A stretch of DNA of 43,367 nt, taken from a virus. Below are positions 17,123-43,367 of the stretch, one piece after another. The stretch is taken from positions 1 to 43,367 of IMG/VR virus record IMGVR_UViG_3300009093_001230; one strand, given 5' to 3'. The notes beneath the pieces were generated by a model. It was not told the DNA's origin. It was given only the letters and a program-made list of their open reading frames with translations, and did not search any database. The stretch's first letter is position 1; the number at the start of each line of letters is the position of its first letter. The position numbers and the translations under genes were made by a program.

Positions 17123-18718
17123 TTAGAATCCAAAGAAGGGCTTCAACACGGTCACGATTGGAGTCACCCATGTTGCCGTGCCGACCGACGTCACATGCGA
17201 TCCGTCATTGACCGTCAAAGTAAGTGCCACACCGGCAAGGTTCCCGCCCGTTTGCAACAGGTGTCCGTCGCTGGAAATGATCGATTCGAAGTTCGAGCTG
17301 ACATCGCTGCTGTCGCTCACTTTGATCACACTGGCCACCCGCGCCTTGCGCAGCGGAAAGAATTGGACGGAGATTGACTGACTGCCGCCCGTGGCATTCG
17401 CGCCGGTAAATCCGCCGGAAATCGTCCTGTATTTCGTCGTGTCTTGCCACGCCGTATTTGTGCCAAATCCGGAAATGGTCGTCAGGTCGACCGTCGCATC
17501 CGCTCCCGAATTCGACGGGGTATTCAAAGACAGATTGAGTGCGGCCCTCTGAGTGTCGGCCGCATTTTGCGTTGTCGTATCCGTGTCCGCCTGTTTCGGA
17601 ACCATTGTCGCCTGCACGACGAAGGCACCTTGTGCCTTGGCTTTCGAAACCCATGTGGCTTGATTGCCTTCTACGGTTGCGGCAGAGGCTCCGGTCGCAA
17701 CATCGATTGATCCCGTAAACACCAAAAGGCCATCGCCAGATTGCAAGCAATTCAGCTGGTTATCGTATGGAGGCGCACCGGCAACTTGCGTTGCCAATGT
17801 CCGGCCGCCGTATGCCGCATTGATGAAACGGACTTGCGGCATCGCCTTCTGCAGTTGGTCCACGATCGTTCCGCCTGCATCCTGTGCCGTACCTTCTCCA
17901 ATGGAATCGCCGGTCACAAAACAACGAGGCCGGTAATCTTTCACGAAGCTATCGTGTAGATAGGCGCTGAGTTTCCGGATTTCCGTCGGCTCTAACGTTC
18001 GATTCCAGAAAGCAAATGCTCCGACATCGACCACAAACCCATTCCCCGCATCCAGGTTTCCGATTTGGACGGGACCGTCCATTGGAATCGTTGTGGTACC
18101 AGTGGATTGCCCGCTGACACACACTCCGTCTATCCATAATATCGCCAACCCGTTGACGCTTTGAAACGTTTTGCTCCCATCATAAGTCCAGATCGCCACG
18201 AGAGGACGCGCCGAACCGCTGACGGTGCCGGCTGAAATACGCCCCTTTGCGCCAATCCCGCCCAGCGGAAAGTGTTGCATGTTAAACTCCGGATTTTGCG
18301 AAGTTTGCAACTGGATTCCGGTAGTCAGGATGCTATTTGCAAAACTCCCAAGCCCGTTGATTGTCGATTGCCCGCCATATGATGTGCTCTTCGGCCACAG
18401 CACCATTGCCACAGAGAAGTTTGCATAATTCCCGCTGAGGAGGTTTGCGGCGGTGGCCAACATGGATGAGCCAGTGCAATGCACCGACGGGTTACCGCAG
18501 ATCCCACCGCTCGAATAGAACGCATTCCCGTAGCCGGCATTGATCGCTTGAGCGGCGGCAACGGTGGCGATATTCCCATTCTTTCCCGTCCAACTGGTGA
18601 CATTACCACCTTCCGAGATACCTTTGATGTCGCGAGCGTCCCAATACTCGACCGGATTGGTCTGCTGCAGGGGATCTTTCGTTGCTGCCGGTCGAGCCAG
18701 CGAGGGAATAGGGATCAT
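17123..18718 (-). CDS. Receptor-binding / tailspike-like protein with LamG-like and SGNH-like domains (531 aa)
   Basis: Residues about 20-250 form a beta-rich concanavalin/LamG-like region (YWDARDIKG, VAMVLWPKSTSYGG, LAILWIDGVCVSG, FAFWNRTLEPTEIRKLSAYL). Residues about 262-420 look like an SGNH/GDSL hydrolase fold: FVTGDSIGEGT (block I, Ser272), NAAYGGRT (300-306) and FTGSIDV (335-340) where block III is normally G-x-N-D. The expected C-terminal D-x-x-H is not evident: DTTKYRTISGG at 426-436 has no His. It may deacetylate host polysaccharide or may only bind it. The last 90 residues are beta-rich. Upstream coupling is by ATGA. A role at the tail tip is inferred from context. Confidence 0.7.
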   Translation of the reverse strand: MIPIPSLARPAATKDPLQQTNPVEYWDARDIKGISEGGNVTSWTGKNGNIATVAAAQAINAGYGNAFYSSGGICGNPSVHCTGSSMLATAANLLSGNYANFSVAMVLWPKSTSYGGQSTINGLGSFANSILTTGIQLQTSQNPEFNMQHFPLGGIGAKGRISAGTVSGSARPLVAIWTYDGSKTFQSVNGLAILWIDGVCVSGQSTGTTTIPMDGPVQIGNLDAGNGFVVDVGAFAFWNRTLEPTEIRKLSAYLHDSFVKDYRPRCFVTGDSIGEGTAQDAGGTIVDQLQKAMPQVRFINAAYGGRTLATQVAGAPPYDNQLNCLQSGDGLLVFTGSIDVATGASAATVEGNQATWVSKAKAQGAFVVQATMVPKQADTDTTTQNAADTQRAALNLSLNTPSNSGADATVDLTTISGFGTNTAWQDTTKYRTISGGFTGANATGGSQSISVQFFPLRKARVASVIKVSDSSDVSSNFESIISSDGHLLQTGGNLAGVALTLTVNDGSHVTSVGTATWVTPIVTVLKPFFGF

Positions 18719-20879: not shown

Positions 20880-21872
20880 TTACGATGCTTTGATGGCGCC
20901 GTGCACGAGAGGGGAGTCGAGCTGTTGTGAGATGATAGCCGTTACCACACCGCGCGGGCCGGAGTCGTCGTCCGGCAACGGTTTGAATCCGGGGAGCTTA
21001 TTTGCCCGCATCTTGATGCCGTTCATCCGCAGGAAATAGCCGCGCTTCGTGTCGGCCTTCTTCGTGGTATTGTTGTAGTGATTCCACAACGTAGGAAGTA
21101 GCCGCACGGTGCCGAAGTCGCCCTTTACGATATCAACCGATCCGTAAAGCGTGCTATCCTTCAACTGTGCCCAGAAGGTACGAACGACAGCTTTGTTCGT
21201 GGTAACACTCTCGTCGTGAATCGTCATCTTCGAGATGAAAGATTTCAGATCCGTTCCCACCGGCCCGTCAAGATCGAGCATTTCGCCGGTCTGTTCGTAG
21301 ATTGACTGCATGATGCCACGGATGTCGTCTTCCGTGAGATCCGTCAGCGCGCCGGAGTAGATGCTCGCGGTCGGTGTCAGATAGAGCGTTGGCACTGGTA
21401 AGTCCGCCTGGGCGGTATCATTGATCCACGCTCCAAGTCCACGGCAGGTGTGAGTCGTACCGACCAGACTGCTGTCCTGGTCGCCGCAGAATACCGCTTC
21501 GATGGCTCGCTTCACAGCGAGGAGCGCGTTTGCTTTCGAGTTGGCAAACTCCGATTGAATGCCCGCCGGCGTGCTCACGTCTTCCGCCATTTCGGAGACG
21601 CCCACCACGCGACGGAGTTTATGCACGCGGCCGTGGAGTAATCCACGATCGCCGGAAAGGTCCTCGACATTATCGACCGGCTTGCCGTCTGGCACGCTAT
21701 TCGTATCTGGATCCGGAATGCGGGCGTGGACCCAATCGTAGATGGTCTTCGCCGGTTTCTTGCCCTTCGGCATCATGGACGATACCGGGGTATTCTTCGC
21801 ATCGGCCACGACGAGCTGATCGCTAAGATCCTCGCGCTTGCCGACCTGGTTAATTTCGCTCGTAGCTGGCAT
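20880..21872 (-). CDS. Major capsid protein, DUF5309-like HK97 fold (330 aa)
   Basis: Expected to form the icosahedral shell. Layout matches the SU10/DUF5309-type capsid family: an N-terminal arm (SEINQVGKREDLSDQLVVAD), a segment K-x-x-K-T-x-Y-D-W-V near 38-48, the middle helix EFANSKANALLAVKRAIEAV at about 109-128 followed by a short insert with GLGAWIND, then ALTDLTEDDIRGIMQSIYEQTG, WAQLKDSTLYGSVDIVKGDFG and a C-terminal GTVRLLPT...YFLRMN...KLPGFKPL region. No N-terminal protease cut site or prohead protease gene is evident. It sits between a scaffold-like gene and a decoration-like gene. Confidence 0.8.
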   Translation of the reverse strand: MPATSEINQVGKREDLSDQLVVADAKNTPVSSMMPKGKKPAKTIYDWVHARIPDPDTNSVPDGKPVDNVEDLSGDRGLLHGRVHKLRRVVGVSEMAEDVSTPAGIQSEFANSKANALLAVKRAIEAVFCGDQDSSLVGTTHTCRGLGAWINDTAQADLPVPTLYLTPTASIYSGALTDLTEDDIRGIMQSIYEQTGEMLDLDGPVGTDLKSFISKMTIHDESVTTNKAVVRTFWAQLKDSTLYGSVDIVKGDFGTVRLLPTLWNHYNNTTKKADTKRGYFLRMNGIKMRANKLPGFKPLPDDDSGPRGVVTAIISQQLDSPLVHGAIKAS

Positions 21873-28880: not shown

Positions 28881-29101
28881 GGGTTCTGAGTAATGATCTC
28901 GTGACTCGGCTGCGCGAGATGGTGGCGCATGACGAGGGTTTGTTCCGCGAGGAGTAAGTGCTGCACACAGTCCCTGCAGACCCAGATGAGCAGGTCCTGG
29001 TCGAAGTCCCACATCGGGCCGATGCCGACGGGTTTGCACAACCCGCAGTGTCCGTCGATATGCCCGACGTGGTTGATGATCCGCGCGCGTCCGACTTTCA
29101 T
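28877..29101 (-). CDS. Small zinc-ribbon protein upstream of TerL (74 aa)
   Basis: MKVGRARIINHVGHIDGHCG followed by CGLCK and CRDC (about 19-22 and 42-45), a two-knuckle zinc site. Between them lies MWDFDQDLLIWV and after them the helix LLLAEQTLVMRHHL. ATGA overlaps on both sides. The adjacent genes encode HTH proteins and TerL; a role in packaging or regulation is conceivable. Function unknown. Confidence 0.65.
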   Translation of the reverse strand: MKVGRARIINHVGHIDGHCGLCKPVGIGPMWDFDQDLLIWVCRDCVQHLLLAEQTLVMRHHLAQPSHEIITQNP

Positions 29102-29379
29102 GTGGGTTGAGCAGCCTCGCGTCCTCGGGCTGCGTCGAGGTGGTTAGTGATGAGTTCGCTGAGCGTGGAATCGAACACCGCGACGCGGCGGAGTTTGTCG
29201 AGGGCTTGCTGCTCGATCTGGGAGATGCGCTGATGGGAGACGCCGCAGAAGGCCGCGAGTTGCTGCAGGGTCATGCCTCGGCCGGGCACGGCGTGACAGC
29301 GGGCGATGGCCAGCCCGAGGTCGATCCGCCTGCCCCGGCCGGATCTGCAGCGTTTACGTTGTGCGGCGCTTAGTGGCAT
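29098..29379 (-). CDS. HTH protein, sigma-region-4-like (93 aa)
   Basis: Basic N terminus (RKRCRSGRGRRID) then LAIARCHAVPGRGMTLQQLA and AAFCGVSHQRISQIEQQALDK, which matches a sigma-70 region 4-type helix-turn-helix (L-A-x-x-x-G-V-S-x-x-x-I-x-x-I-E-x-x-A-L-x-K-L-R). The remainder is a short helical tail. Clearly related to the next upstream gene: 24 of 43 residues identical in my alignment by eye. Position just before TerL makes a small-terminase or late-regulator role possible. ATGA downstream; 10-bp overlap upstream. Confidence 0.7.
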   Translation of the reverse strand: MPLSAAQRKRCRSGRGRRIDLGLAIARCHAVPGRGMTLQQLAAFCGVSHQRISQIEQQALDKLRRVAVFDSTLSELITNHLDAARGREAAQPT

Positions 29380-29693: not shown

Positions 29694-30041
29694 CTAGCTT
29701 TGCACCTCCTTCACCTGTTGCTCGCACCACATTTCCCAGTGCGTCTGATCACGCATCTGCGCATCGGTGGGCTGGTTCGGCACGTAGCGGTATTCGGCAA
29801 TGCGCGAGCATCCGCCGGTGCGACGGCCCGTCTTCGGATCACGGCCATCCCAGAAACATGATCCGATCTGATCCGCCGGTGTCGCGCACTCGTAAGCATA
29901 CAACGTTTCGCTGGAAGCCGGCTCGTCTCCGATCTGGTCGAGCGCATCCCACTTCGCGCCATGGACCACGCGCAAGAAGCGCGGAGCCCGAGCAAGGCTC
30001 AATGTCAAATTCTGCGCCGGGCCGTCGATGAAGCTGATCAC
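29694..30041 (-). CDS. Conserved phage protein, function unknown (115 aa)
   Basis: Start taken as GTG 30041, which makes GTGA with the upstream stop and has AGGGGG about 7 bp upstream. Sequence begins (V)ISFIDGPAQNLTLSLARAPRF and continues LRVVHGAKWDALDQIGDEP, ETLYAYECATPA and a C-rich patch (GSCFWDGRDPKTGRRTGGCS). The motif L-x-R-A-P-x-F-L-R-V-V-x-x...W-D-A-L-D-Q recurs in phage early genes, function unknown. A longer ATG start upstream is in-frame but lies inside the DHH gene. Confidence 0.65.
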   Translation of the reverse strand: MISFIDGPAQNLTLSLARAPRFLRVVHGAKWDALDQIGDEPASSETLYAYECATPADQIGSCFWDGRDPKTGRRTGGCSRIAEYRYVPNQPTDAQMRDQTHWEMWCEQQVKEVQS

Positions 30042-31426
30042 GGTTGCACCCCCTTCCACGCATCGACACACGCCGGCCGCGCCGGCACTTTCACGTCCGG
30101 GTTATCGCTCGCGTTGAAGTGCACACACGTGCACCATTCTTCGACTTCCGACCGTTGTTCACCGGTCCAAGCTTCGATGACATCGAGCGGCACGTTCTCA
30201 CCGACTAACTCCAGCATGTCGCGGAGCGTCGTTGTGTCTGTGATCTCCGCTTGAAAGGTCTCCATTGCCCGGCGAATGATCGGATCCTTTTTGAACGCCG
30301 CTTCCCGCCGGTCCAGTCGATCAATCTCAGCAGCGATGAGAGCGCCCGCCTTCACCAAGTTACGGCGCGGATCCCGCGCTTGGAAGTACTCACGTTCCCA
30401 CGGCCAATCCTTGTGGAAGAAACACGGCGGCGATTGTTCCAATCCGTTCTTGATTTGCAGGGCAGCCGTCTCCGCATAGCACGCTGCCGCCTGCGCGATT
30501 GAGCCGTTCCGGTGGCCGTCATCATGTGCGGCGCTATATCCTTCCTCCTGGATCTGCCGCTGCCGCTCCCGAGTAATGGCAATGCAGCCGCCCTGCTCAA
30601 AGTCTCCGACGATGCTATGCAGCTCTTCCTCGAACCCGCACGCCTGCGGATGGCCACCGCCACCCAGTTCCTTGGCGATCACACTACAGTCGAAGTCCGG
30701 ACGGCTGCGCAGACTCCAGATCCGTTTGCCTTCCTGGTCGCGGTAGACGGCTACGAAGGGCGCATCCGGATGCTCTTCGAGCATCTGGTGGCACGTCTCG
30801 CTGTGGAATGCCGTGACGTTCGCGACCGGGACGGTATAACCGCCGACGGTATTCGTGAAGGCAAACGATGCCTGGACGCGCGCGATCTTCTCGATCTGCT
30901 GCAGCGCAACAAACCCGTCATGCATCAGCTTCGGAATGCTCTCCACCGCATGGGTAAAGGCGACGAAGTCCCGCGGCACGATCGAGAGCGCGGCATTGAT
31001 CTCGCGCGAGCTGGGCAATTGCCACTGCCACAGGTCGCGGTCCTGGACGTAGAGCAGGATTTCCGGGACGGCCTTATCCGGGAAGAAGTAGCGCCACGCG
31101 AGGACGGCGCCGCACTGCGAGGTATCGAAGTGCACACGGAGCGGGCAATCCACCTCCAATCCTGGCAATCCATCGAGCTCCGCTTTGGCCGTCGAATGGT
31201 GATCGAGTACGACCACATGATTCAGCATCGACAGACTCTCAAGAATGGTCCGCTTATAACTGAAATCGAGAATGAAGATGCGGCTTCCTTCCGTGATGGT
31301 GGCCGGGACCGGCTCGCCGTAGAATACGGGGATATAGGTCGCATCATCGCGGAAGAGCAGCCAGGCAACCCACGCGGCCGCAAAGCCGTCCGGACAATTG
31401 GCGTGATAGAGAACGTAAGTTTTCAT
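30038..31426 (-). CDS. DHH-family phosphoesterase fused to a phage-specific C-terminal domain (462 aa)
   Basis: Residues 1-275 are a DHH/DHHA1 phosphoesterase: HANCPDGFAAAW (D13), FILDFSYKR (D54), VVVLDHHSTA (75-77), VQDRDLW (D129), and GGGGHPQACGF (255-265). The family includes NrnA-type nucleases and enzymes that hydrolyse short oligonucleotides or cyclic dinucleotide breakdown products. From about 285 a different domain begins, RERQRQIQEEGYSAAHDDGH, with AQAAACYAETAALQ and RRNLVKAGALIAAEIDRLDR; I know this as a stand-alone phage domain of unknown function. The fusion is unusual. Start at ATG 31426 after the leader CCTAACCT. GTGA links it to the next gene. Confidence 0.8.
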   Translation of the reverse strand: MKTYVLYHANCPDGFAAAWVAWLLFRDDATYIPVFYGEPVPATITEGSRIFILDFSYKRTILESLSMLNHVVVLDHHSTAKAELDGLPGLEVDCPLRVHFDTSQCGAVLAWRYFFPDKAVPEILLYVQDRDLWQWQLPSSREINAALSIVPRDFVAFTHAVESIPKLMHDGFVALQQIEKIARVQASFAFTNTVGGYTVPVANVTAFHSETCHQMLEEHPDAPFVAVYRDQEGKRIWSLRSRPDFDCSVIAKELGGGGHPQACGFEEELHSIVGDFEQGGCIAITRERQRQIQEEGYSAAHDDGHRNGSIAQAAACYAETAALQIKNGLEQSPPCFFHKDWPWEREYFQARDPRRNLVKAGALIAAEIDRLDRREAAFKKDPIIRRAMETFQAEITDTTTLRDMLELVGENVPLDVIEAWTGEQRSEVEEWCTCVHFNASDNPDVKVPARPACVDAWKGVQP

Positions 31427-34200: not shown

Positions 34201-34499
34201 AGCGGTTCCTCGGTTCGGGTGCCGTCCGGGTTGAACTGCGGGAGTTTCCAGCGCCGGTCGTCCACTCTCCCCCTCACTCCATCGCCCGGAATATAGCCTT
34301 CGTCCGCCAGCCAATCTTGCACCGCTGGATGCCGCATTGCGGCTTCGCACTCGCCGTGGGTGTGCCCGTTGTAGGGATCTCCATCAAACACGCCAAAGTG
34401 TGCGAACGCTGCTGAGCCCGCGGGAATCACTTCGCAGCACCATGTGCATCGATGCTCACGACGTGTCTTCTTGATTGGCCGGCTATGATGGAAGTCCAT
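34197..34499 (-). CDS. Small phage zinc-binding protein (100 aa)
   Basis: CTWC (near 18-21) followed by FDGDPYNGHTHGECEAAM, giving a C-x-x-C...H-x-x-C set of zinc ligands. Similar small phage proteins (R-C-x-W-C-x-E...H-x-E-C-E-x-A) are common early genes and their role is unknown. TAATG sharing with the helicase stop upstream and ATGA downstream support translation. Confidence 0.65.
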   Translation of the reverse strand: MDFHHSRPIKKTRREHRCTWCCEVIPAGSAAFAHFGVFDGDPYNGHTHGECEAAMRHPAVQDWLADEGYIPGDGVRGRVDDRRWKLPQFNPDGTRTEEPL

Positions 34500-36115
34500 T
34501 ATTGCTCCTCCGCGTTTTCTTCGATTTCCTCCGGAGCCTGCCGGTGCTGCGCATTGTTGCTATATCTCGTACGCTCCGGATCCCATGTAGAGAACTGCGT
34601 GTAGTCAGCGACGAATCGCAGATCGATCGGCCCCACCGGTCCCTCGCGTTGTTTGTCGATGATCAGTTTCGCGTACCGCTCCAGGTCCTCGGTGCCGAAG
34701 CGGATCTCTTCGGCCTTTTCTTTGGGCATCCCGCGCCACATCGCTTCGCGCACGAACCGTTCCCGTAACTCCTCGGCAAGCGCTTGTTGCTTATCGACGT
34801 TGTGTTTCACGTAGTAATGCGGCCGATGCAATAGTCCGACGACGTGGGCCTCCTGCTCGATGTCGCCACATTCCCTGAAATCGCTCATGTCCGGCTCGGC
34901 ATCCGGTCGCCGGTCCTTCGGGCGCTTGAGCTGCGCGAGGATGATGATCGGGATCTGCAGCTCTTTGGCGATGATACTGATGCCCTGGGCGATTTCCTGC
35001 AGTTCGAGATACCGCGCGTCTTCGCTCCGCTTGCTCGATCCTTTGATCCGTTGCAGGTAGTCGATCACGATGATCACATCCGGCTTTCCGTCCTTCCGTT
35101 CGCCGCCGTTGATTCGCCGCTGCTGTTTCACGAAGCGGCGGATCCGGGCACGGAGGTGGGCGATGGTCAATGCCGCGGTCTCGTCGATGAATAGCTTCGA
35201 CTTGGCGATCCGGGTCATCGCCGCGGTGAGATGATTGATATCTCCCTGGGAGAAGAATCCATCCCGCGCTCTCTGCAGATTGATCTGCGCAAGCCGGAGG
35301 ATGGCGCGCTTGATCAATTGGACGCCGGTCATCTCGATCGAGAAGATGAGGGTGGGCGTCGCCGTCGCGCCCGACATTGCCGCGCAGGATGTCTCGAGCG
35401 CGAACTCCATGCCCAGGGATGTCTTACCCATGGCCGGCCGCGCGCCGATATAGTAGGTGTATCCCTTCTGCCAACCACCGATCATGCGGTCGAGATCGAC
35501 GAAACCGGTCGGGATGCCGATGGTGCGGCCGCGGTTATTGTAGGCGTACTCGATCTCCTGCAGCGCTTGGAAGGCGAAGTCTTTGGCCGGTTTGACGGTG
35601 TTCTCCTGGATGCCGCCGGCGGCGATCTCGGAAAAGGCGGTCGCAGCATCTTCTGTGATGTCGCGCCACTGGTCCTGCTCCTCGTAACAGCGCTGGGTCA
35701 ACGCGTGGCACTGAGTGATGACTTCCCGGAGTGTCGCTTTTTGCCGCACGATGTCGGCGTAATGCCGCCAGTTGGCAGCGGTGGGATAACCAAAGAGGTT
35801 CACGAGCGCGCCGGCGCCGCCGATTTTTTCGAGTAGCCCCACATCGCGCATGCGGTTGACCATCACGACGGTGTCGATTTTTTGCTTTGCTTCGTGCAGC
35901 GCGACGGTTTGTTCCCAAATGAGTGCGTGCGCCTGCACATGAAAGTGCGCCGGCGTGATGATCTCGGCGGCATCGTCGAGGATATCCGGCGCAATGAGGG
36001 CAGAGGAGACGAGTGCGCTCTCAGCTTCCGGACTGGATGGCAGGAGACGGTGACCGCCTTGCGCCGATGAGGCTGCGGCGTAGTCGTCGGGTGATTCGGG
36101 GCGGGGCGATTTCAT
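34499..36115 (-). CDS. DnaB-family replicative helicase (538 aa)
   Basis: Unwinds the phage DNA at replication. N-terminal DnaB-N helical domain (about 25-135), linker, then the RecA-like core: Walker A GARPAMGKTS (224-233), IFSIEMTGVQL (257-267), Walker B VIIVIDYLQRI (347-357), LAQLKRPKDRRP (393-404) and SDFRECGDIEQEAHVVGLLHR (411-431), the usual DnaB signature. The C-terminal end is a short acidic tail. Coupled by ATGA to the initiator-like gene, as expected for a loader/helicase pair. Confidence 0.9.
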   Translation of the reverse strand: MKSPRPESPDDYAAASSAQGGHRLLPSSPEAESALVSSALIAPDILDDAAEIITPAHFHVQAHALIWEQTVALHEAKQKIDTVVMVNRMRDVGLLEKIGGAGALVNLFGYPTAANWRHYADIVRQKATLREVITQCHALTQRCYEEQDQWRDITEDAATAFSEIAAGGIQENTVKPAKDFAFQALQEIEYAYNNRGRTIGIPTGFVDLDRMIGGWQKGYTYYIGARPAMGKTSLGMEFALETSCAAMSGATATPTLIFSIEMTGVQLIKRAILRLAQINLQRARDGFFSQGDINHLTAAMTRIAKSKLFIDETAALTIAHLRARIRRFVKQQRRINGGERKDGKPDVIIVIDYLQRIKGSSKRSEDARYLELQEIAQGISIIAKELQIPIIILAQLKRPKDRRPDAEPDMSDFRECGDIEQEAHVVGLLHRPHYYVKHNVDKQQALAEELRERFVREAMWRGMPKEKAEEIRFGTEDLERYAKLIIDKQREGPVGPIDLRFVADYTQFSTWDPERTRYSNNAQHRQAPEEIEENAEEQ

Positions 36116-37053
36116 GCGGAAAGGGCGAATTCGGACCGGACGGAGTCAGGGAGGGCAAACCAGTTGGCCGGCCTGGTTAAGTCGGGGTAGCGCGAGGCAA
36201 ACCATTCCCAGCAGCCGGCGGGTTCGGTGAGGGGTGCGGCATTTTTTTGCGCGGGGTTTTTTTCGATCCGACCGATGCGCTGGAAGTAAGCGGTGGCTGT
36301 TTCAAGCGCGGCGAAGAGATTGATCGCCAGGCGATCCGCGTTCCGGTACCGAGACCGCAGATCCACGTCCTCCCCGTCATGTGGCAGGGCGTAGAAGTCG
36401 CGCAGTATTTTTTCGTCCTCAGCGGAAAGCGGTAGGTCGTTAGCGAAGCCGGCGAGTGCGCGTTCGGCCTCGTTTCCGAGCCGGGTTCTTTTTTGCCCCA
36501 AAATCTGGGTGCAGAGGGTGGCAGTTTTGGCAAGAGCATCCTCGCACGCACGCGCACCCTCGCGCGCTTGCGCGTGGAGTGGGGGAGGTTCTCTTCTATT
36601 CTCCTCTCCTCTCCTCTCCTCTGCGCCAGCAGAAGAGCCAGCTTGTCGCAATAAGCTGGCCTCCTGCTGTCCAGCTAGCTGGTTGCTAGCTTCGTGCGTG
36701 CTGGTAGCAAGTTGGCCGGTAGCTGTTCGCGCGGCTGCTGCGGCGCGTTTTTTCCCGCCTTCGATCTTTGCGAGCCAGGACGCGTTGATGTCGCGCCATC
36801 CATGCGCAAGATAACCGTCGGATGACTCGTCGATCCATCCGCACGTGACCAGGGCAGTCAGAAGTACCTTTGCTTTGCCGTCCCATCTGCAGATTGCCGC
36901 GACATCCTCCGGATCTCGGCCCAGGAAGTCGTTTCGCCGCACCTGACAGTGCGCCCAGATCCGGAGCAGCATGAGCGGCGCGGCCGGCATCTTCAATGCC
37001 CGCACGAGCTTCACGGTCTTCGGATGGTCAGGAAAGTCCGGATCCACGATCAT
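36112..37053 (-). CDS. Phage replication initiator-like protein (313 aa)
   Basis: The N-terminal winged-helix-like region (MIVDPDFPDHPKTVKLVRAL, CRWDGKAKVLLTALVTCGWI) is followed by a low-complexity Gln/Ser/Ala-rich linker at about 110-170 and a helical C-terminal domain (WFASRYPDLTRPANWFALP). The architecture is like lambda O or DnaD-type loaders: DNA-binding N terminus, linker, helicase-contacting C terminus. Position immediately upstream of the DnaB gene supports this. The linker DNA contains repeats (see separate entry) that could act as an origin. Not a confirmed family. Confidence 0.7.
   Translation of the reverse strand: MIVDPDFPDHPKTVKLVRALKMPAAPLMLLRIWAHCQVRRNDFLGRDPEDVAAICRWDGKAKVLLTALVTCGWIDESSDGYLAHGWRDINASWLAKIEGGKKRAAAAARTATGQLATSTHEASNQLAGQQEASLLRQAGSSAGAEERRGEENRREPPPLHAQAREGARACEDALAKTATLCTQILGQKRTRLGNEAERALAGFANDLPLSAEDEKILRDFYALPHDGEDVDLRSRYRNADRLAINLFAALETATAYFQRIGRIEKNPAQKNAAPLTEPAGCWEWFASRYPDLTRPANWFALPDSVRSEFALSA
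36587..36725 (-). repeat. Short repeats inside the initiator gene, possible origin
   Basis: Within the linker-coding part of the initiator gene there are four tandem CTCCT units (36601-36620) and four copies of G(C/G)TAGC at 36674, 36685, 36703 and 36718. Their spacing (11, 18 and 15 bp) is only roughly helical. In lambda-like phages the origin iterons lie at this place in the O gene. No AT-rich unwinding region is obvious here, so the origin call is tentative. Confidence 0.35.
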
Positions 37054-37554: not shown

Positions 37555-38313
37555 TCAAACAGTCGGTGAAATCTGGCCCCCCCCAGGTTCCGAGACCCCC
37601 GCCCCCCCCACGTCCGAGCCGGCGACCGGACGCGCATCGCGATCGCCTTTGGTAGCCTCAACAGTAGCCTGTGCCGCAACGCGAGGGAGAACGTCCGATT
37701 GCATATCGGATGATGCTGCCGGTAACACGTGGACACGCGCCGGACCATCCAGGGCGGCGCCATTTGCGCCCGTTCCTCCCACGCCCAAACCGGTATCTGA
37801 GCCCTTCACGCGCTTCATCCTATCCATCCATTCTTCCCACGTGCGCGGCGCATCGCTAGGCGTCTGGGTAGTCTCAATCCGCTGAGTCACTCCACCGCTG
37901 AGCAGCTCTATCTTCTCCGTGATGATGCCCAGGGCGATAGGCTTCGCCTCGGGCTTCAGGTTGCCGTCTACCACATCCTCAATGATCGACTCAGCCAGCA
38001 TCGACTGAGCGATCCGCAGGTTCGCCAGGACTTTCTCTTTTCCTGTGTCTATAGCGATGCGTTCACGTTCTGCCACCGCCGCGATCGTTAAATGGTGCAC
38101 CCGACAAGCCCGCTTGATCGCACGGATGCTCTGCCCTTGCTGCAACAAGTGCACAATCGTCCTGTAAGTGTCCGGACGCGAACGCCACAGCCTCTCCGCT
38201 GTATAATGACCATCCTGGTCGAGCTTCTGCTCTACCTCATCCGGTAGCGAAAAAAGAACCGGCTGCTGAGCCAACGCTGCGTCTTGCTCGATAATCAGAC
38301 TCTGCAGGCTCAT
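37555..38313 (-). CDS. HTH DNA-binding protein with Gly/Ala-rich tail (252 aa)
   Basis: An HTH-like segment near 50-80 (RTIVHLLQQGQSIRAIKRAC, RVHHLTIAAVAERERIAI) is followed by helices with AQSMLAESIIEDVVDG and IALGIITEKIELLSG. The last 80 residues are Gly/Ala/Val-rich and poorly ordered. Similar phage early regulatory proteins share the HTH plus a second helical domain with I-A-x-G-I-x-x-x-K-x-x-x-L-S-G. Function not assigned. ATGA with the upstream gene. Confidence 0.65.
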   Translation of the reverse strand: MSLQSLIIEQDAALAQQPVLFSLPDEVEQKLDQDGHYTAERLWRSRPDTYRTIVHLLQQGQSIRAIKRACRVHHLTIAAVAERERIAIDTGKEKVLANLRIAQSMLAESIIEDVVDGNLKPEAKPIALGIITEKIELLSGGVTQRIETTQTPSDAPRTWEEWMDRMKRVKGSDTGLGVGGTGANGAALDGPARVHVLPAASSDMQSDVLPRVAAQATVEATKGDRDARPVAGSDVGGAGVSEPGGGQISPTV

Positions 38314-38684
38314 TCTTTCTCCTCTCTGAGTGCCGATGTCGGCACAAAAAAAGAACGCGGCGCGGGCTGCGGATCATCTGCCGATTGCAGAGCGTTGCGC
38401 TCGATATACGCAGTAACTCCCTTAACCGGTATCCTGAGCCGATTGTGAGCTGGCTTGAACGCTATACCCCAGGGACCATTAAATGCGCCGCTATGGGCCA
38501 GATGCAGCACCGTCTGCTTCGCCAATCCAAGCTTGGTAGCTACCTCTGCCGAATCGAGGTAATCATCCACCTCCGGCTTACGCAGTATGCCGCGCAACAG
38601 GATCAATTCATCCGGTCGCAATGGTTCAGCATCACGCCTCACCTTCATTCGCTGCTTAGGCTGAGAAAAAACTTCGCGCGCCAT
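38310..38684 (-). CDS. MerR/excisionase-type HTH protein (124 aa)
   Basis: ELILLRGILRKPEVDDYLDS, then SAEVATKLGLAKQTVLHLAH and RLRIPVKGVTAYIERN form the winged HTH of the excisionase/MerR (HTH_17) class: a Y-L-x-x-x-E-V-A-x-x-L-G-x-x-x-x-T-V motif and R-I-P-x-x-x-V-x-A-Y-I. It is a candidate excisionase or early regulator, but lies 3.3 kb from the integrase. TAATG and ATGA overlaps with its neighbours. Confidence 0.7.
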   Translation of the reverse strand: MAREVFSQPKQRMKVRRDAEPLRPDELILLRGILRKPEVDDYLDSAEVATKLGLAKQTVLHLAHSGAFNGPWGIAFKPAHNRLRIPVKGVTAYIERNALQSADDPQPAPRSFFVPTSALREEKE

Positions 38685-39603: not shown

Positions 39604-39825
39604 TTAGTCCTCCGCGACTTTGAGTTGTTCCTCTTCCACCACGCTGAATAGCTCCGGCTGTTTCGCGTTCGCTACCTCACGACGCAACCGCGACAGCTCC
39701 TTTTCGAGCTCCCGTTCTCGCTTCACCGCTTCCTCGGCCACGGCGATCTCCGGACCGATTCGCAGTCCGCGCAGCACGGTTACCTCGTGCTCCAGCACAA
39801 CGATTCGGGCTTCAGGTTGCGTCAT
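39604..39825 (-). CDS. Small coiled-coil protein, first gene of the leftward operon (73 aa)
   Basis: MTQPEARIVVLEHEVTVLRG then a charged helix with heptad spacing (KRERELEKELSRLRREVANA) and an acidic end. It is the first gene after the early leftward promoter, a place typical of Cro- or antiterminator-like proteins, but it has no recognisable DNA-binding motif. Start chosen at ATG 39825; two earlier in-frame ATGs would fall inside the promoter. Confidence 0.55.
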   Translation of the reverse strand: MTQPEARIVVLEHEVTVLRGLRIGPEIAVAEEAVKRERELEKELSRLRREVANAKQPELFSVVEEEQLKVAED

Positions 39826-39832
39826 GTGATAA

Positions 39833-39861
39833 GTTATTGCGTAACGCATCTTTTGAGGCAA
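39833..39861 (-). promoter_or_regulatory. Candidate early leftward promoter with operator
   Basis: On the minus strand TTGCCT (39856-39861) and AATAAC (39833-39838) are separated by 17 bp, each with four of six consensus bases. The palindrome TGCGT-A-ACGCA (39838-39848) lies between them, in the position where a repressor would block RNA polymerase. The next 80 bp up to the plus-strand repressor gene contain ATTGC-N8-GCAAT (39886-39903), a second likely operator. The host sigma preference is unknown, so boxes are tentative. Confidence 0.45.
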
Positions 39862-39885
39862 CAACTTTCTTGCGCGGAGCGTCAA

Positions 39886-39903
39886 ATTGCCGTACCACGC
39901 AAT
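39886..39903. promoter_or_regulatory. Operator-like inverted repeat ATTGC-N8-GCAAT
   Basis: Perfect five-base half-sites flank eight bases, ending 2 bp before the repressor ATG at 39906. The half-site ATTGC also occurs at 39836-39840 within the upstream promoter palindrome. It is well placed for autoregulation of the repressor. Confidence 0.4.
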
Positions 39904-39905
39904 CC

Positions 39906-40331
39906 ATGGCCTACGTCGCAGCAGCGCTAACTACAGTCCTTTCTGAGATCGATTGGACCCAACGCGATCTGGCGCAGCGCTGCGGTTTGCCGGCCAGCCA
40001 GATCAATCGGTACTGCCGTGGCGTGAATAAAATCCCGATCGACAGCGCCGAGAAGCTCATCCGGGCAATTCCAGAGGAACACCGCGCGACAATCCTGATT
40101 GCATACCTTCGCGACTGCATCCCTCCAGGCTTTGAAAACCTCGTCGAAGTCGCGTCCACAAGTCCACGGGTGAAAGAGGAGGGGATCGATGGCATCAAGC
40201 TCCCCAAAGGCATGGATGCCGAGCTGACTCGGATGATTGAATTGTTTGGCCAGCTCGGCATGCGACATACCCAGGTGCGCGATATGATGCGCAGCTTTCT
40301 TAAGATCGCCGCGCCGGAGCAGATGGCCTGA
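39906..40331 (+). CDS. CI/Cro-family HTH repressor without autoproteolysis domain (141 aa)
   Basis: Only one of two plus-strand genes. The HTH is at about 10-45: VLSEIDWTQRDLAQRCGLPA, SQINRYCRGVNKIPIDSAEK. The remaining 95 residues are helical (YLRDCIPPGFENLVEVAS, LTRMIELFGQLGMRHTQVRD, MMRSFLKIAAPEQMA) with no S24 peptidase-like Ser/Lys dyad, so RecA-induced self-cleavage is not expected. Divergent from the leftward early operon and separated by 80 bp with operators. The 3' end overlaps the convergent 177-aa gene by 32 bp. Start at ATG 39906; a longer reading would cross the promoter. Confidence 0.75.
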   Translation: MAYVAAALTTVLSEIDWTQRDLAQRCGLPASQINRYCRGVNKIPIDSAEKLIRAIPEEHRATILIAYLRDCIPPGFENLVEVASTSPRVKEEGIDGIKLPKGMDAELTRMIELFGQLGMRHTQVRDMMRSFLKIAAPEQMA

Positions 40332-40833
40332 CCTTCGCGTTACGGATGACCCGCGCCGCGACGGCATCCTGATCCAGCGCGGACAAGATAATCCGCGCCG
40401 CCTTCCGCGTGTCGCCTTCTTGGGCGCATTCCACGATCGCCGTCAGGTAATCACTCACAAGACTCTTCACCTCTTCTTTGCTCTCGGCACTCATCGGCTC
40501 GATCAATTGCGGGATTGGCGGCCATCCCAGCGCCGGCGCCATGTTCCGATATACTTGCTGCATCAGCGGCACAGGGAACGTCTGCAGCGTGCCGAGAAAA
40601 GGATCCGTTGCGGTCTGGTAGGGCAGGGCAAATGCCTTGGCGAGATTACCCACCATGTTGCCGAATTTGATCAAGCTCGGATAGCCCCACGGCTGTTGAT
40701 GCGGGATCCGGGCGAGGAATCCCGTGATCGATCGAAACTCCACGCCAACATCGGGCTGCAGAGTGGCTTCGGCGCCCTCTTCAATCGGTACTTCAGTGCT
40801 GTCAGGTTGCGGCTGATTTTCGGTGTCATTCAT
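40300..40833 (-). CDS. Gene with LexA-like box, convergent with the repressor (177 aa)
   Basis: Sequence MNDTENQPQPDSTEVPIEEG then FRSITGFLARIPHQQPWGYP, LAKAFALPYQTATDPFLGTL, QTFPVPLMQQVYRNMAPALG, and a helical C-terminal part (VKSLVSDYLTAIVECAQEGD) ending in basic residues. No recognised motif. Its start is 3 bp after a perfect TGTTC-N4-GAACA palindrome, and its 3' end overlaps the repressor's by 32 bp in the opposite direction. I infer it is LexA-repressed and could act as an antirepressor, or that its transcript interferes with repressor expression. Confidence 0.65.
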   Translation of the reverse strand: MNDTENQPQPDSTEVPIEEGAEATLQPDVGVEFRSITGFLARIPHQQPWGYPSLIKFGNMVGNLAKAFALPYQTATDPFLGTLQTFPVPLMQQVYRNMAPALGWPPIPQLIEPMSAESKEEVKSLVSDYLTAIVECAQEGDTRKAARIILSALDQDAVAARVIRNAKVRPSAPARRS

Positions 40834-40836
40834 ACA

Positions 40837-40850
40837 TGTTCAAGAGAACA
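40837..40850. promoter_or_regulatory. LexA-like box TGTTC-N4-GAACA, upstream of 177-aa gene
   Basis: TGTTC-AAGA-GAACA is a perfect palindrome with a 4-bp spacer, ending 3 bp before the minus-strand ATG at 40833. Read from memory, TGTTC-N4-GAACA is the LexA motif described for Verrucomicrobia. A TATAAG element (minus strand, 40883-40888) lies about 33 bp upstream; a matching -35 is not clear. Confidence 0.65.
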
Positions 40851-40887
40851 CTATTCGGTCTCACAACCAAGCACAATTCCGCCTTAT

Positions 40888-40938
40888 ACAGACAAATCAG
40901 TACGGACAAAATCCACGTCCCACGGACACCACTTGTCC
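40888..40938. repeat. ACGGACA direct repeats and GGACA-N5-TGTCC inverted repeat
   Basis: ACGGACA occurs at 40902-40908 and 40922-40928, exactly 20 bp apart, with a related ACAGACA at 40888-40894. The last copy also forms GGACA-CCACT-TGTCC (40924-40938), directly after the stop of the 78-aa membrane gene. It could be a regulator binding array or a weak terminator hairpin; no U-tract follows. Confidence 0.4.
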
Positions 40939-40942
40939 TATC

Positions 40943-41179
40943 CTATTCCTTCCGCAGAAAGTTGGCTGTCCAGGCCGCTCCCAGGATCAGTGCAAAGTCG
41001 ATAAAGACTGTCGCAGACATCGGAATATCAGGCACCGATCCCTCTCCAAATGGCACCTCGTACACACGCCGGCCGAAGATGTCGTAATTGTACCGCCCAT
41101 CGCTCGTTCTCACCATTCCCTCCACCACGAAGTACACGAAGAGCAGTCCCAGAATGATGTTGGATAGCGCCTTCCGCAT
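40943..41179 (-). CDS. Small two-transmembrane protein, lysogeny region (78 aa)
   Basis: MRKALSNIILGLLFVYFVVE is one hydrophobic segment (about 6-24), and SATVFIDFALILGAAWTANF near the C terminus is another (about 55-74). A polar, Tyr-rich loop (SDGRYNYDIFGRRVYEVPFG) lies between. Shares one base with the upstream lipoprotein stop (TGATG). Likely co-expressed with the lipoprotein from the prophage; superinfection exclusion is a guess. Confidence 0.6.
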   Translation of the reverse strand: MRKALSNIILGLLFVYFVVEGMVRTSDGRYNYDIFGRRVYEVPFGEGSVPDIPMSATVFIDFALILGAAWTANFLRKE

Positions 41180-41550
41180 CACAGATAGCGGATGAGCATT
41201 ACCTTCACTTTGGGACGCACCATCAGTTCGTCCTGGTCGACTCCGCTGATACGATTGCCGGCAGCCATCACAATCATCGCTTGGGCCCCGTGACTCGCCG
41301 CCGCTTTCGCGAGATCGTTCAGTACCGTGCCCTTCGTTGCGCGTGTTCCGCCTTCTTCCTCCATGAATCCGAGAACCCGGTAACGCCGCGGTGGATCCCC
41401 GTTTTCCCACACCTGCACGCCCTGGACCATTTGCACCGTCCCGCCAGTGCCGACGCGCACACTATTGCCAACGAAGGGCTGAAACTCCGGTTCGGCGCAA
41501 CTTGGCAGGCACATGGCCGCCGCGAGTAGGGGAATGGCGTACATCCTCAT
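41179..41550 (-). CDS. Predicted lipoprotein, lysogeny region (123 aa)
   Basis: The signal sequence MRMYAIPLLAAAMCLPSC ends in a lipobox L-P-S-C with the lipid-modified Cys at 18. The mature part (VGTGGTVQMVQGVQVWENGD, PRRYRVLGFMEEEGGTRATK, LAKAAASHGAQAMIVMAAGN) is a compact alpha-beta domain. A similar R-V-L-G-x...A-x-x-x-G-A-D/Q-A-x-I-V core occurs in small secreted or heavy-metal-binding-like bacterial proteins. Placed beside the integrase with the small membrane protein, it is a candidate lysogenic-conversion or surface-exclusion gene. The function is not known. Confidence 0.65.
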   Translation of the reverse strand: MRMYAIPLLAAAMCLPSCAEPEFQPFVGNSVRVGTGGTVQMVQGVQVWENGDPPRRYRVLGFMEEEGGTRATKGTVLNDLAKAAASHGAQAMIVMAAGNRISGVDQDELMVRPKVKVMLIRYL

Positions 41551-41598
41551 GCCCTCGCCTGTAGCAAAGGGCTGCCGCTATCGCAATCTCGGCTTGCG

Positions 41599-41633
41599 TG
41601 TTCTCGTGTTCCGAAACAGTGTTCACAAGAACA
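41599..41633. promoter_or_regulatory. LexA-like box TGTTC-N4-GAACA with extra half-sites, upstream of the 131-aa gene
   Basis: The perfect palindrome TGTTC-ACAA-GAACA occupies 41620-41633, ending 2 bp before the plus-strand ATG at 41636. Two further TGTTC half-sites lie at 41599-41603 and 41607-41611. The 85-bp gap also contains the upstream region of the divergent lipoprotein gene. The same motif precedes the 177-aa gene 0.8 kb away. Confidence 0.65.
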
Positions 41634-41635
41634 CG

Positions 41636-42031
41636 ATGCCAGACGATATGCACAAACGGATCAACCTCCTTGCTCAAGAGACCCGGCGTCTCTGGGAAAC
41701 TGTCGTAATCGCTCAGGAAATCTCCAAATCGCTGGGGAAGCCGCTCAATTGCCTGGGCGGCGCGGCGCGAGCCCAAGCCGCTGTCCGTGACGCCTACGCC
41801 CTCGTCCGCGAGTTCCTCGAGGAGTACGCAAACCAGGACCAGCTCATCCGCTACGTTTTCACCACGCGGAAGAGCTACCGCAAAGAGGTGCAATTTGATC
41901 ACACCAAAGAGCAGAGGCGTGTTGAGCTGTTCCTCACTCAGTCGTACATGGCCGCGCAGAAAATCGGCTTCTGCGGCGAGTATCGCCGCTGGCTCGATGT
42001 CGTGCGCTATCGTCCGAAACCGATGTGGTAG
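41636..42031 (+). CDS. Gene with LexA-like box beside the integrase (131 aa)
   Basis: MPDDMHKRINLLAQETRRLW, then VVIAQEISKSLGKPLNCLGG, AAVRDAYALVREFLEEYANQ and RRVELFLTQSYMAAQKIGFC, ending in a Trp/Arg-rich strand (GEYRRWLDVVRYRPKPMW). Mostly helical, soluble, unassigned. Convergent with the integrase (1 bp between stops). The LexA-like box directly before its ATG suggests SOS induction; an antirepressor or a prophage-induction gene is an inference. An earlier in-frame start would lie beyond the box. Confidence 0.65.
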   Translation: MPDDMHKRINLLAQETRRLWETVVIAQEISKSLGKPLNCLGGAARAQAAVRDAYALVREFLEEYANQDQLIRYVFTTRKSYRKEVQFDHTKEQRRVELFLTQSYMAAQKIGFCGEYRRWLDVVRYRPKPMW

Positions 42032-42032
42032 C

Positions 42033-43367
42033 CTACAGTCCGCAATCCCGGAATGTGATCGGCGCGATTGGGGCGTGGTCCGTCAGATAGTGCCGGCCGG
42101 CCACGGTCTTCGGCGCATGCCGGAGAAACCGCTCTGCGTATTCGTCTCCCTGTCGGCGTGCCACGATAGTCGCCGCCCATCTACGTAGCTCATAGGACGT
42201 CTTTGCATGTCCTTGCACCCACTGTCGGACGAAGTTGCCGTGATCACGATCAACAATCCACTCACGCTCTGTCTTTGTCCTGGCGGGAATGAGGAAATCC
42301 TCCGGATTCGCCGCCCCGCTATACCTCCGGATTTCGCGCCACACCGCAGGCGCGATCGGTACTTCTCCTGAGCTCTTCTTTGGGATCCATTCTGGTCGCG
42401 GTTTGATCACCATCGCTCCCGCGATCGCGCGCCTTTCCCCATTTGGCAGTGTGACCGTATCGCTTCGCTTTTCGAGCCATCCGAGGCGTGCATTCTCCGC
42501 TTCGTCATTACGTAACGCCAGATGGCGGAATAACAAATGAGCGACGTAGAGTGCCGGAAACTGGTCGCGCAGACAGAGGGCTGCCTGCGACATCTGCCAG
42601 ATCGATTCTGGCGCCATTCGCATGTGCTCGATCCGTGGATCCGCCAACGTCTCCGTCGTCAGGAATCCTTCGAGAAATCGGCTGAACTGCTTTTCCGGGG
42701 AAAGCTTCTGCCCATTTACCGACGGCTCTCCTGGAAGGGATAACCCGCGATAACATTTGAGCGCCGCATCGCAGAACATCGCCCTGGCGTTTCTCAATGC
42801 CGCGTTCGCGCCCCTGATTTTGCTATCTCGATCAACCAGGTCCGTCGCTTCCGTCACATATGCTGCGAAGAATTTCTCCACCAGCTCGCTCGTCAGTGCC
42901 GATGCACGCACTTCGTCCGCATCTCCAGGATACACCCGCCGCAACACACTGCGCAGAGCGCTCGTATAGCCGGCTGCGGTGCGATCCTTCATCTTCACGC
43001 TGAAACTCTGGATTTTCGTTTCGTAGGCCTCGATCAGCTCGCCGATCGTACACACGCTGCGTGCGGGACGCAGTCGCGACTGATCCAGTGCGTCCCATCG
43101 TCCTTCCATCGCCGCACGCAGCTTCAGCTTTGCCCCTTCGGCCGCGAATCCTTTGGTGTCCACGCCCAGTGATTGCAGGACCTGCCGGCCACCGATGTAA
43201 AACTTCACGTAGTAGGACTTCTGTCGCTTGCCGTGCTTCAAAGGTCGGAAGACTCTGGCCGTCTTTCCGGCGACCTGCACCTCGAAGAAGTCGTCCTCCC
43301 GATCCTCCGGCGTTTCGATCTTCTGATACAGCACACGAGGGGGCAGGGGCGTGTCTTGGGTGTCCAT
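42033..43367 (-). CDS. int: Tyrosine recombinase / phage integrase (444 aa)
   Basis: Catalyses site-specific integration and excision. The N-terminal region resembles an arm-binding strand domain (YYVKFYIGGRQVLQSLGV) and is followed by a core-binding helical domain. Catalytic residues in the C-terminal half: R286 (HLALRNDEAE), K330/331 (EWIPKKSSGE), box II TSYELRRWAAT with Y392 where the family usually has His and R395, H417 (FLRHAPKT), and the nucleophile Y427 (GRHYL). The His-to-Tyr change is unusual but tolerated in some family members. The start is at the window edge, so a longer protein upstream cannot be excluded. Confidence 0.85.
   Translation of the reverse strand: MDTQDTPLPPRVLYQKIETPEDREDDFFEVQVAGKTARVFRPLKHGKRQKSYYVKFYIGGRQVLQSLGVDTKGFAAEGAKLKLRAAMEGRWDALDQSRLRPARSVCTIGELIEAYETKIQSFSVKMKDRTAAGYTSALRSVLRRVYPGDADEVRASALTSELVEKFFAAYVTEATDLVDRDSKIRGANAALRNARAMFCDAALKCYRGLSLPGEPSVNGQKLSPEKQFSRFLEGFLTTETLADPRIEHMRMAPESIWQMSQAALCLRDQFPALYVAHLLFRHLALRNDEAENARLGWLEKRSDTVTLPNGERRAIAGAMVIKPRPEWIPKKSSGEVPIAPAVWREIRRYSGAANPEDFLIPARTKTEREWIVDRDHGNFVRQWVQGHAKTSYELRRWAATIVARRQGDEYAERFLRHAPKTVAGRHYLTDHAPIAPITFRDCGL

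Follow-up and report, generated by a model that had tools for sequence, protein, structure and literature searches.

A possible LexA-controlled antirepressor switch beside a repressor without a self-cleavage domain in a Verrucomicrobiota provirus

The control region described here lies in a window of 43,367 bases, meaning the whole stretch of DNA that was analysed, and comprises a CI-like repressor gene (P0001), a divergent leftward early operon, and two genes of no recognizable family (P0002 and P0003), each immediately preceded by a predicted LexA box (Table 1). The P0001 product carries a Cro/C1-type HTH_3 domain at residues 16–55 (Pfam E 5e-8, above the Pfam cut-off), leaving just 86 residues after the HTH, and has no match to Peptidase_S24 in Pfam. 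These results bear out the original prediction of a repressor with an HTH and without an autoproteolysis domain. Because P0001 lacks the C-terminal S24 peptidase domain, it was rejected as a self-cleaving repressor of the CI/LexA type, and RecA-stimulated self-cleavage is not expected. Induction of the ImmR/ImmA type, in which an M78 protease cuts the HTH repressor, was likewise rejected, since no M78 peptidase match was found in P0001 or the neighbouring proteins and P0002 and P0003 contain no HEXXH metalloprotease motif. A distant homologue of P0001 (E 1e-4), the only match in 337 genomes, occupies the syntenic place in a prophage of the Verrucomicrobiota genome G244 (C17:27231-27752). No comparable boxed gene was found beside the repressor of this related prophage.

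Table 1 Predicted genes and sites of the control region, with selected genes of the early operon.
Feature	Position	Strand	Details
DnaB	34499-36115		Early operon
Rep protein	36112-37053		Early operon
Excisionase-like HTH gene	38310-38684		Early operon
First gene of the leftward early (lytic/replication) operon	39604..39825	-	73 aa; ORF list and sequence
Probable repressor operators	39817..39903		Divergent switch; TTGCG half-sites at 39817, 39837, 39870 and 39898
CI-like repressor P0001	39906..40331	+	141 aa; ATG at 39906, stop at 40331; Pfam and PHROGs matches
LexA-boxed orphan P0002 (predicted box)	40300..40833	-	177 aa; pI 5.1; convergent with the repressor gene
Predicted LexA box 1	40837..40850	-	TGTTCAAGAGAACA, read TGTTCTCTTGAACA on the P0002 strand; 3 nt before ATG
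Terminator-like hairpin	40915..40929	-	Between membrane-protein gene and box 1; consensus match only
Small membrane-protein gene	40943..41179	-	78 aa; coupled to lipoprotein gene; no family match
Predicted lipoprotein gene	41179..41550	-	123 aa; divergent from P0003; no family match
Predicted LexA box 2	41620..41633	+	TGTTCACAAGAACA; 2 nt before P0003 ATG
LexA-boxed orphan P0003 (predicted box)	41636..42031	+	131 aa; pI 9.6; adjoins and is convergent with the integrase gene
Tyrosine integrase	42033..43367	-	PHROG integrase, E 9e-14

Base 1 of the window begins a minus-strand stop codon and the final base is the start of the integrase ATG, so the record ends at gene boundaries, as an excised provirus presumably would. 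Of 288 Verrucomicrobiota genomes, 11 have a relative of the capsid gene (best E 7e-38), as does one of 297 Acidobacteriota genomes (E 1e-4). Portal, terminase, replication, and tail relatives lie in the same regions as the capsid relatives in G162, G244, and G223, and on the basis of this synteny and of the capsid, portal, and terminase relatives we assign the provirus to Verrucomicrobiota. The syntenic prophages in this phylum are divergent from the present one; G162 and G244 belong to the same order as G044, G035, and G052. The G+C by codon position of P0001, P0002, and P0003 follows the phage's own pattern. The region is best explained as a Verrucomicrobiota prophage's immunity region. The control region is not common to the 80 viral relatives found via the Rep protein. 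The SU10-type capsid (window positions 20880-21872) marks a diverse prophage lineage common to G162, G244, G223, G307, and G046.

The gap between the repressor gene and the early operon measures 80 bp and contains the window's densest cluster of TTGCG/CGCAA, with four occurrences in 96 bp against 0.35 expected. The half-sites form imperfect palindromes (TTGCG-TAA-CGCAT, TTGCG-CGGAG-CGTCAA, and ATTGC-N8-GCAAT), and these candidate sites are likely the operators of P0001. Lambda/P22-type phages likewise have operator-like repeats separating a divergent pair of HTH repressor gene and early operon; their repressors, however, are cleavable, whereas P0001 is without the S24 domain.

The exact palindrome TGTTC-N4-GAACA occurs in the whole window only at boxes 1 and 2, where 0.05 sites would be expected; two exact boxes were reached in one of 100 shuffles and in none of 300 first-order Markov sequences. 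Their spacing of 2–3 nt to both predicted ATGs is hardly due to chance. Candidate promoters picked by eye accompany both boxes: TTGTGC (40876-40871) and TAGTGT (40853-40848), 17 nt apart, at box 1, where the −10 element overlaps the box, and TTGCGT (41594-41599) and CAGTGT (41617-41622), also 17 nt apart, at box 2. A sigma-70 consensus scan returned no promoter in the region. Additional TGTTC half-sites lie near box 2 at 41599 and 41607. An inverted repeat, CGCAA-N7-TTGCG (41582-41598), extends over the candidate −35 of P0003 and is possibly an extra operator, with half-sites that face outwards as opposed to those at the early promoter. A scan of viral contigs for a box, 2 nt, and an ATG gave 42 matches, most of which lack a real ORF. 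Several IMG/VR contigs (L355, L370, L371, L372, L373, and L388) contain a longer palindrome, AGTGTTC-N4-GAACACTATG, with two copies in IMGVR_UViG_3300043756_000111 and no ORF following it.

Erill and colleagues reportedly described TGTTC-N4-GAACA in 2016 as the motif of the Verrucomicrobia LexA regulon. Both phage boxes match it at all ten fixed positions and adjoin a start codon, as some host lexA boxes do, the difference being that they sit on the phage genes P0002 and P0003. We searched for this motif with at most one mismatch before lexA or recA, using the reversed motif as a control. Among 12 Verrucomicrobiota genomes, chosen as those with a LexA of the MK(E/D)LT, LTDRQ, or similar type, the box preceded lexA in seven and recA in four, and the control was found in 0 of 24 of the same promoters. 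The corresponding Acidobacteriota counts were 2 of 22 for lexA and 0 of 12 for recA, and this scarcity combined with the single capsid relative among 297 genomes makes an Acidobacteriota host unlikely. The lexA genes of G044, G052, and G035 have the box, or a variant of it, within about 1–10 nt of the start codon; that of G044 shares the box-2 nt-ATG layout of the phage (TGTTCACTTGAACActATG vs TGTTCACAAGAACAcgATG in the phage), as does that of G052 with a degenerate box. No box was present in Verrucomicrobiota lineages whose lexA product starts MK(T/A)LTEKQ, and none was clear at lexA in two genomes with related prophages, G162 and G244. As for exact boxes, those in G307, G162, G244, G223, and others lie mostly within genes and look like chance, so not all Verrucomicrobiota lineages use this motif as their SOS box. 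The alphaproteobacterial LexA direct repeat, GTTC-N7-GTTC, was not enriched in the window.

The original prediction that both genes are LexA-boxed is thus upheld by exact palindromes beside their ATGs and by similar lexA and recA promoters in the host phylum. Judged from these relatives, control of P0002 and P0003 by LexA is very probable. The boxes might instead be bound by a phage regulator, either P0001 or the excisionase-like HTH protein, as the phage encodes several DNA-binding proteins and the LexA comparison drew on relatives from the host phylum. We consider this most improbable. The early-promoter region has its own, different repeats and no TGTTC-N4-GAACA box within two mismatches; the dissimilarity of the TTGCG repeats makes it improbable that the repressor binds at the boxes, and the motif equals the one preceding lexA and recA in genomes of the host phylum, in some cases with the same start-codon spacing.

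P0002 and the repressor gene converge and overlap by 32 bp at the repressor 3′ end (40300-40331), in agreement with the predicted arrangement. The terminator-like hairpin upstream of box 1 sets P0002 off as its own unit. Box 2 occupies the intergenic region that P0003 shares with the divergent lipoprotein gene and could control both P0003 and the lipoprotein/membrane-protein pair. Neither P0002 nor P0003 has a match in PHROGs, Pfam, NCBIfam, or GenBank phages, or a relative in the phage, plasmid, viral, or sampled genome collections, so an antirepressor role gains no comparative support; these homology searches covered limited samples and used pattern-based scans sensitive to close relatives only. 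Pattern searches of viral contigs with P0001–P0003, the integrase, the capsid, and the lipoprotein gave no relatives, nor did a P0003 pattern search of genome contigs. Two weak matches to P0002 (in G090 and G170) were dismissed as chance alignments within the frames of other genes. Single-sequence AlphaFold2 models of P0002 and P0003 had pLDDT of 50 and 44 and were not usable.

We propose that P0001, small and non-cleavable, would keep the leftward early promoter shut from its TTGCG-type operators while host LexA would occupy the two boxes, which overlap both the promoters and the start sites of P0002 and P0003. Upon DNA damage, RecA would trigger LexA self-cleavage, P0002 and P0003 would presumably be SOS-induced, and at least one of their products would bind and inactivate P0001. 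As P0001 is not expected to cleave itself and the early promoter carries no LexA box, damage would reach the switch, if at all, only via the two boxed units. Either gene is a candidate antirepressor, with P0002 slightly favoured because it adjoins the repressor gene and is acidic. We give the full proposal, in which an SOS-induced, LexA-controlled antirepressor inactivates P0001, an even chance of being correct.

The layout also supports the earlier suggestion that transcription of the 177-aa gene runs antisense to the repressor gene, and extends it: a box 1 transcript continuing past the repressor gene would read into the lytic operon in sense orientation. The leftward transcript from box 1 could then by itself silence the repressor and start the lytic genes, and the P0002 protein may matter little. 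P0002, the repressor antisense strand, and the early operon are in line on the minus strand; a consensus scan from 40300 to 39700 found nothing terminator-like on the minus strand, the 32-bp overlap is too tight to accommodate a bidirectional terminator, and the terminator-like hairpin closely precedes box 1 instead of following it. However, the terminator scan used a simple consensus that is blind to Rho-dependent ends, and the route leaves box 2 unexplained. Moreover, the full P0002 coding sequence and its phage-like codon pattern suggest that the protein is probably made. We regard this purely transcriptional route as unlikely, and we think it similarly doubtful that a LexA promoter in the immunity region lets SOS flip the switch chiefly through this one transcript, with help from one or two antirepressors belonging to a new, unrelated protein family.

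P0002 and P0003 might alternatively be SOS accessory genes (for DNA damage, lysis timing, or conversion) with no direct role at the repressor, induction being achieved otherwise or independently of damage. LexA-boxed prophage genes other than antirepressors do exist, for example dinI homologues (PMC3121763). Both genes here are orphans, and box 2 faces the lipoprotein gene as well. Yet the link from damage to the non-cleavable P0001 would then vanish from the sequence, and both boxed units directly adjoin the immunity gene. We consider the accessory role rather unlikely.

The proposed antirepressor switch has precedents in enterobacterial phages. In Gifsy, LexA-controlled antirepressors inactivate repressors of 136 aa that have no cleavage motif, and 186 and N15 work likewise (PMC3121763). 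In the GfoR-GfoA systems of Salmonella Gifsy-1 and Gifsy-3, as predicted here, the repressor is about 136–150 aa without a cleavage motif (PMC3121763), and LexA acts directly on the antirepressor gene (here, candidate genes) while the immunity gene itself is unboxed. In contrast, Gifsy has its antirepressor genes outside the immunity region, whereas P0002 runs towards the repressor gene and overlaps its end; antirepression is known there and is proposed here; and the phylum and LexA motif differ, with no sequence relation to P0002 or P0003 seen. Coliphage 186 Tum and N15 AntC follow the same LexA-controlled antirepressor logic (cited in PMC3121763). Tum, at 146 aa, is similar in size to P0003 but has a DinI-like half, to which neither P0002 nor P0003 shows similarity, and there is no homology. 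With Tum, AntC, and GfoA-type systems the provirus shares a repressor without an S24 domain and a candidate gene under a predicted LexA operator; homology to a known antirepressor is missing, which is not a strict mark of the kind as known antirepressors differ from one another. By this analogy, the system probably joins the kind represented by 186 Tum, N15 AntC, and Gifsy GfoA.

We found no literature report of LexA-controlled antirepressor systems in Verrucomicrobiota. If the proposal is true, LexA-controlled bypass of a non-cleavable repressor extends from enterobacterial phages to this phylum with unrelated effectors, and P0002 and P0003 are two small candidate antirepressors that are directly testable. 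A host-specific LexA motif on a prophage can also aid host assignment of viral contigs.

Elsewhere in the provirus, a 462-aa protein near the portal-side genes (30038-31426) matches DHHA1 (E 6e-7), which is unusual for a phage packaging region, and a 93-aa protein between packaging genes (29098-29379) has a weak sigma-factor family match (E 1e-5). A 531-aa tail-region protein (17123-18718) contains a GDSL-lipase-like domain (E 3e-6, below the cut-off) and is possibly a receptor or polysaccharide esterase.
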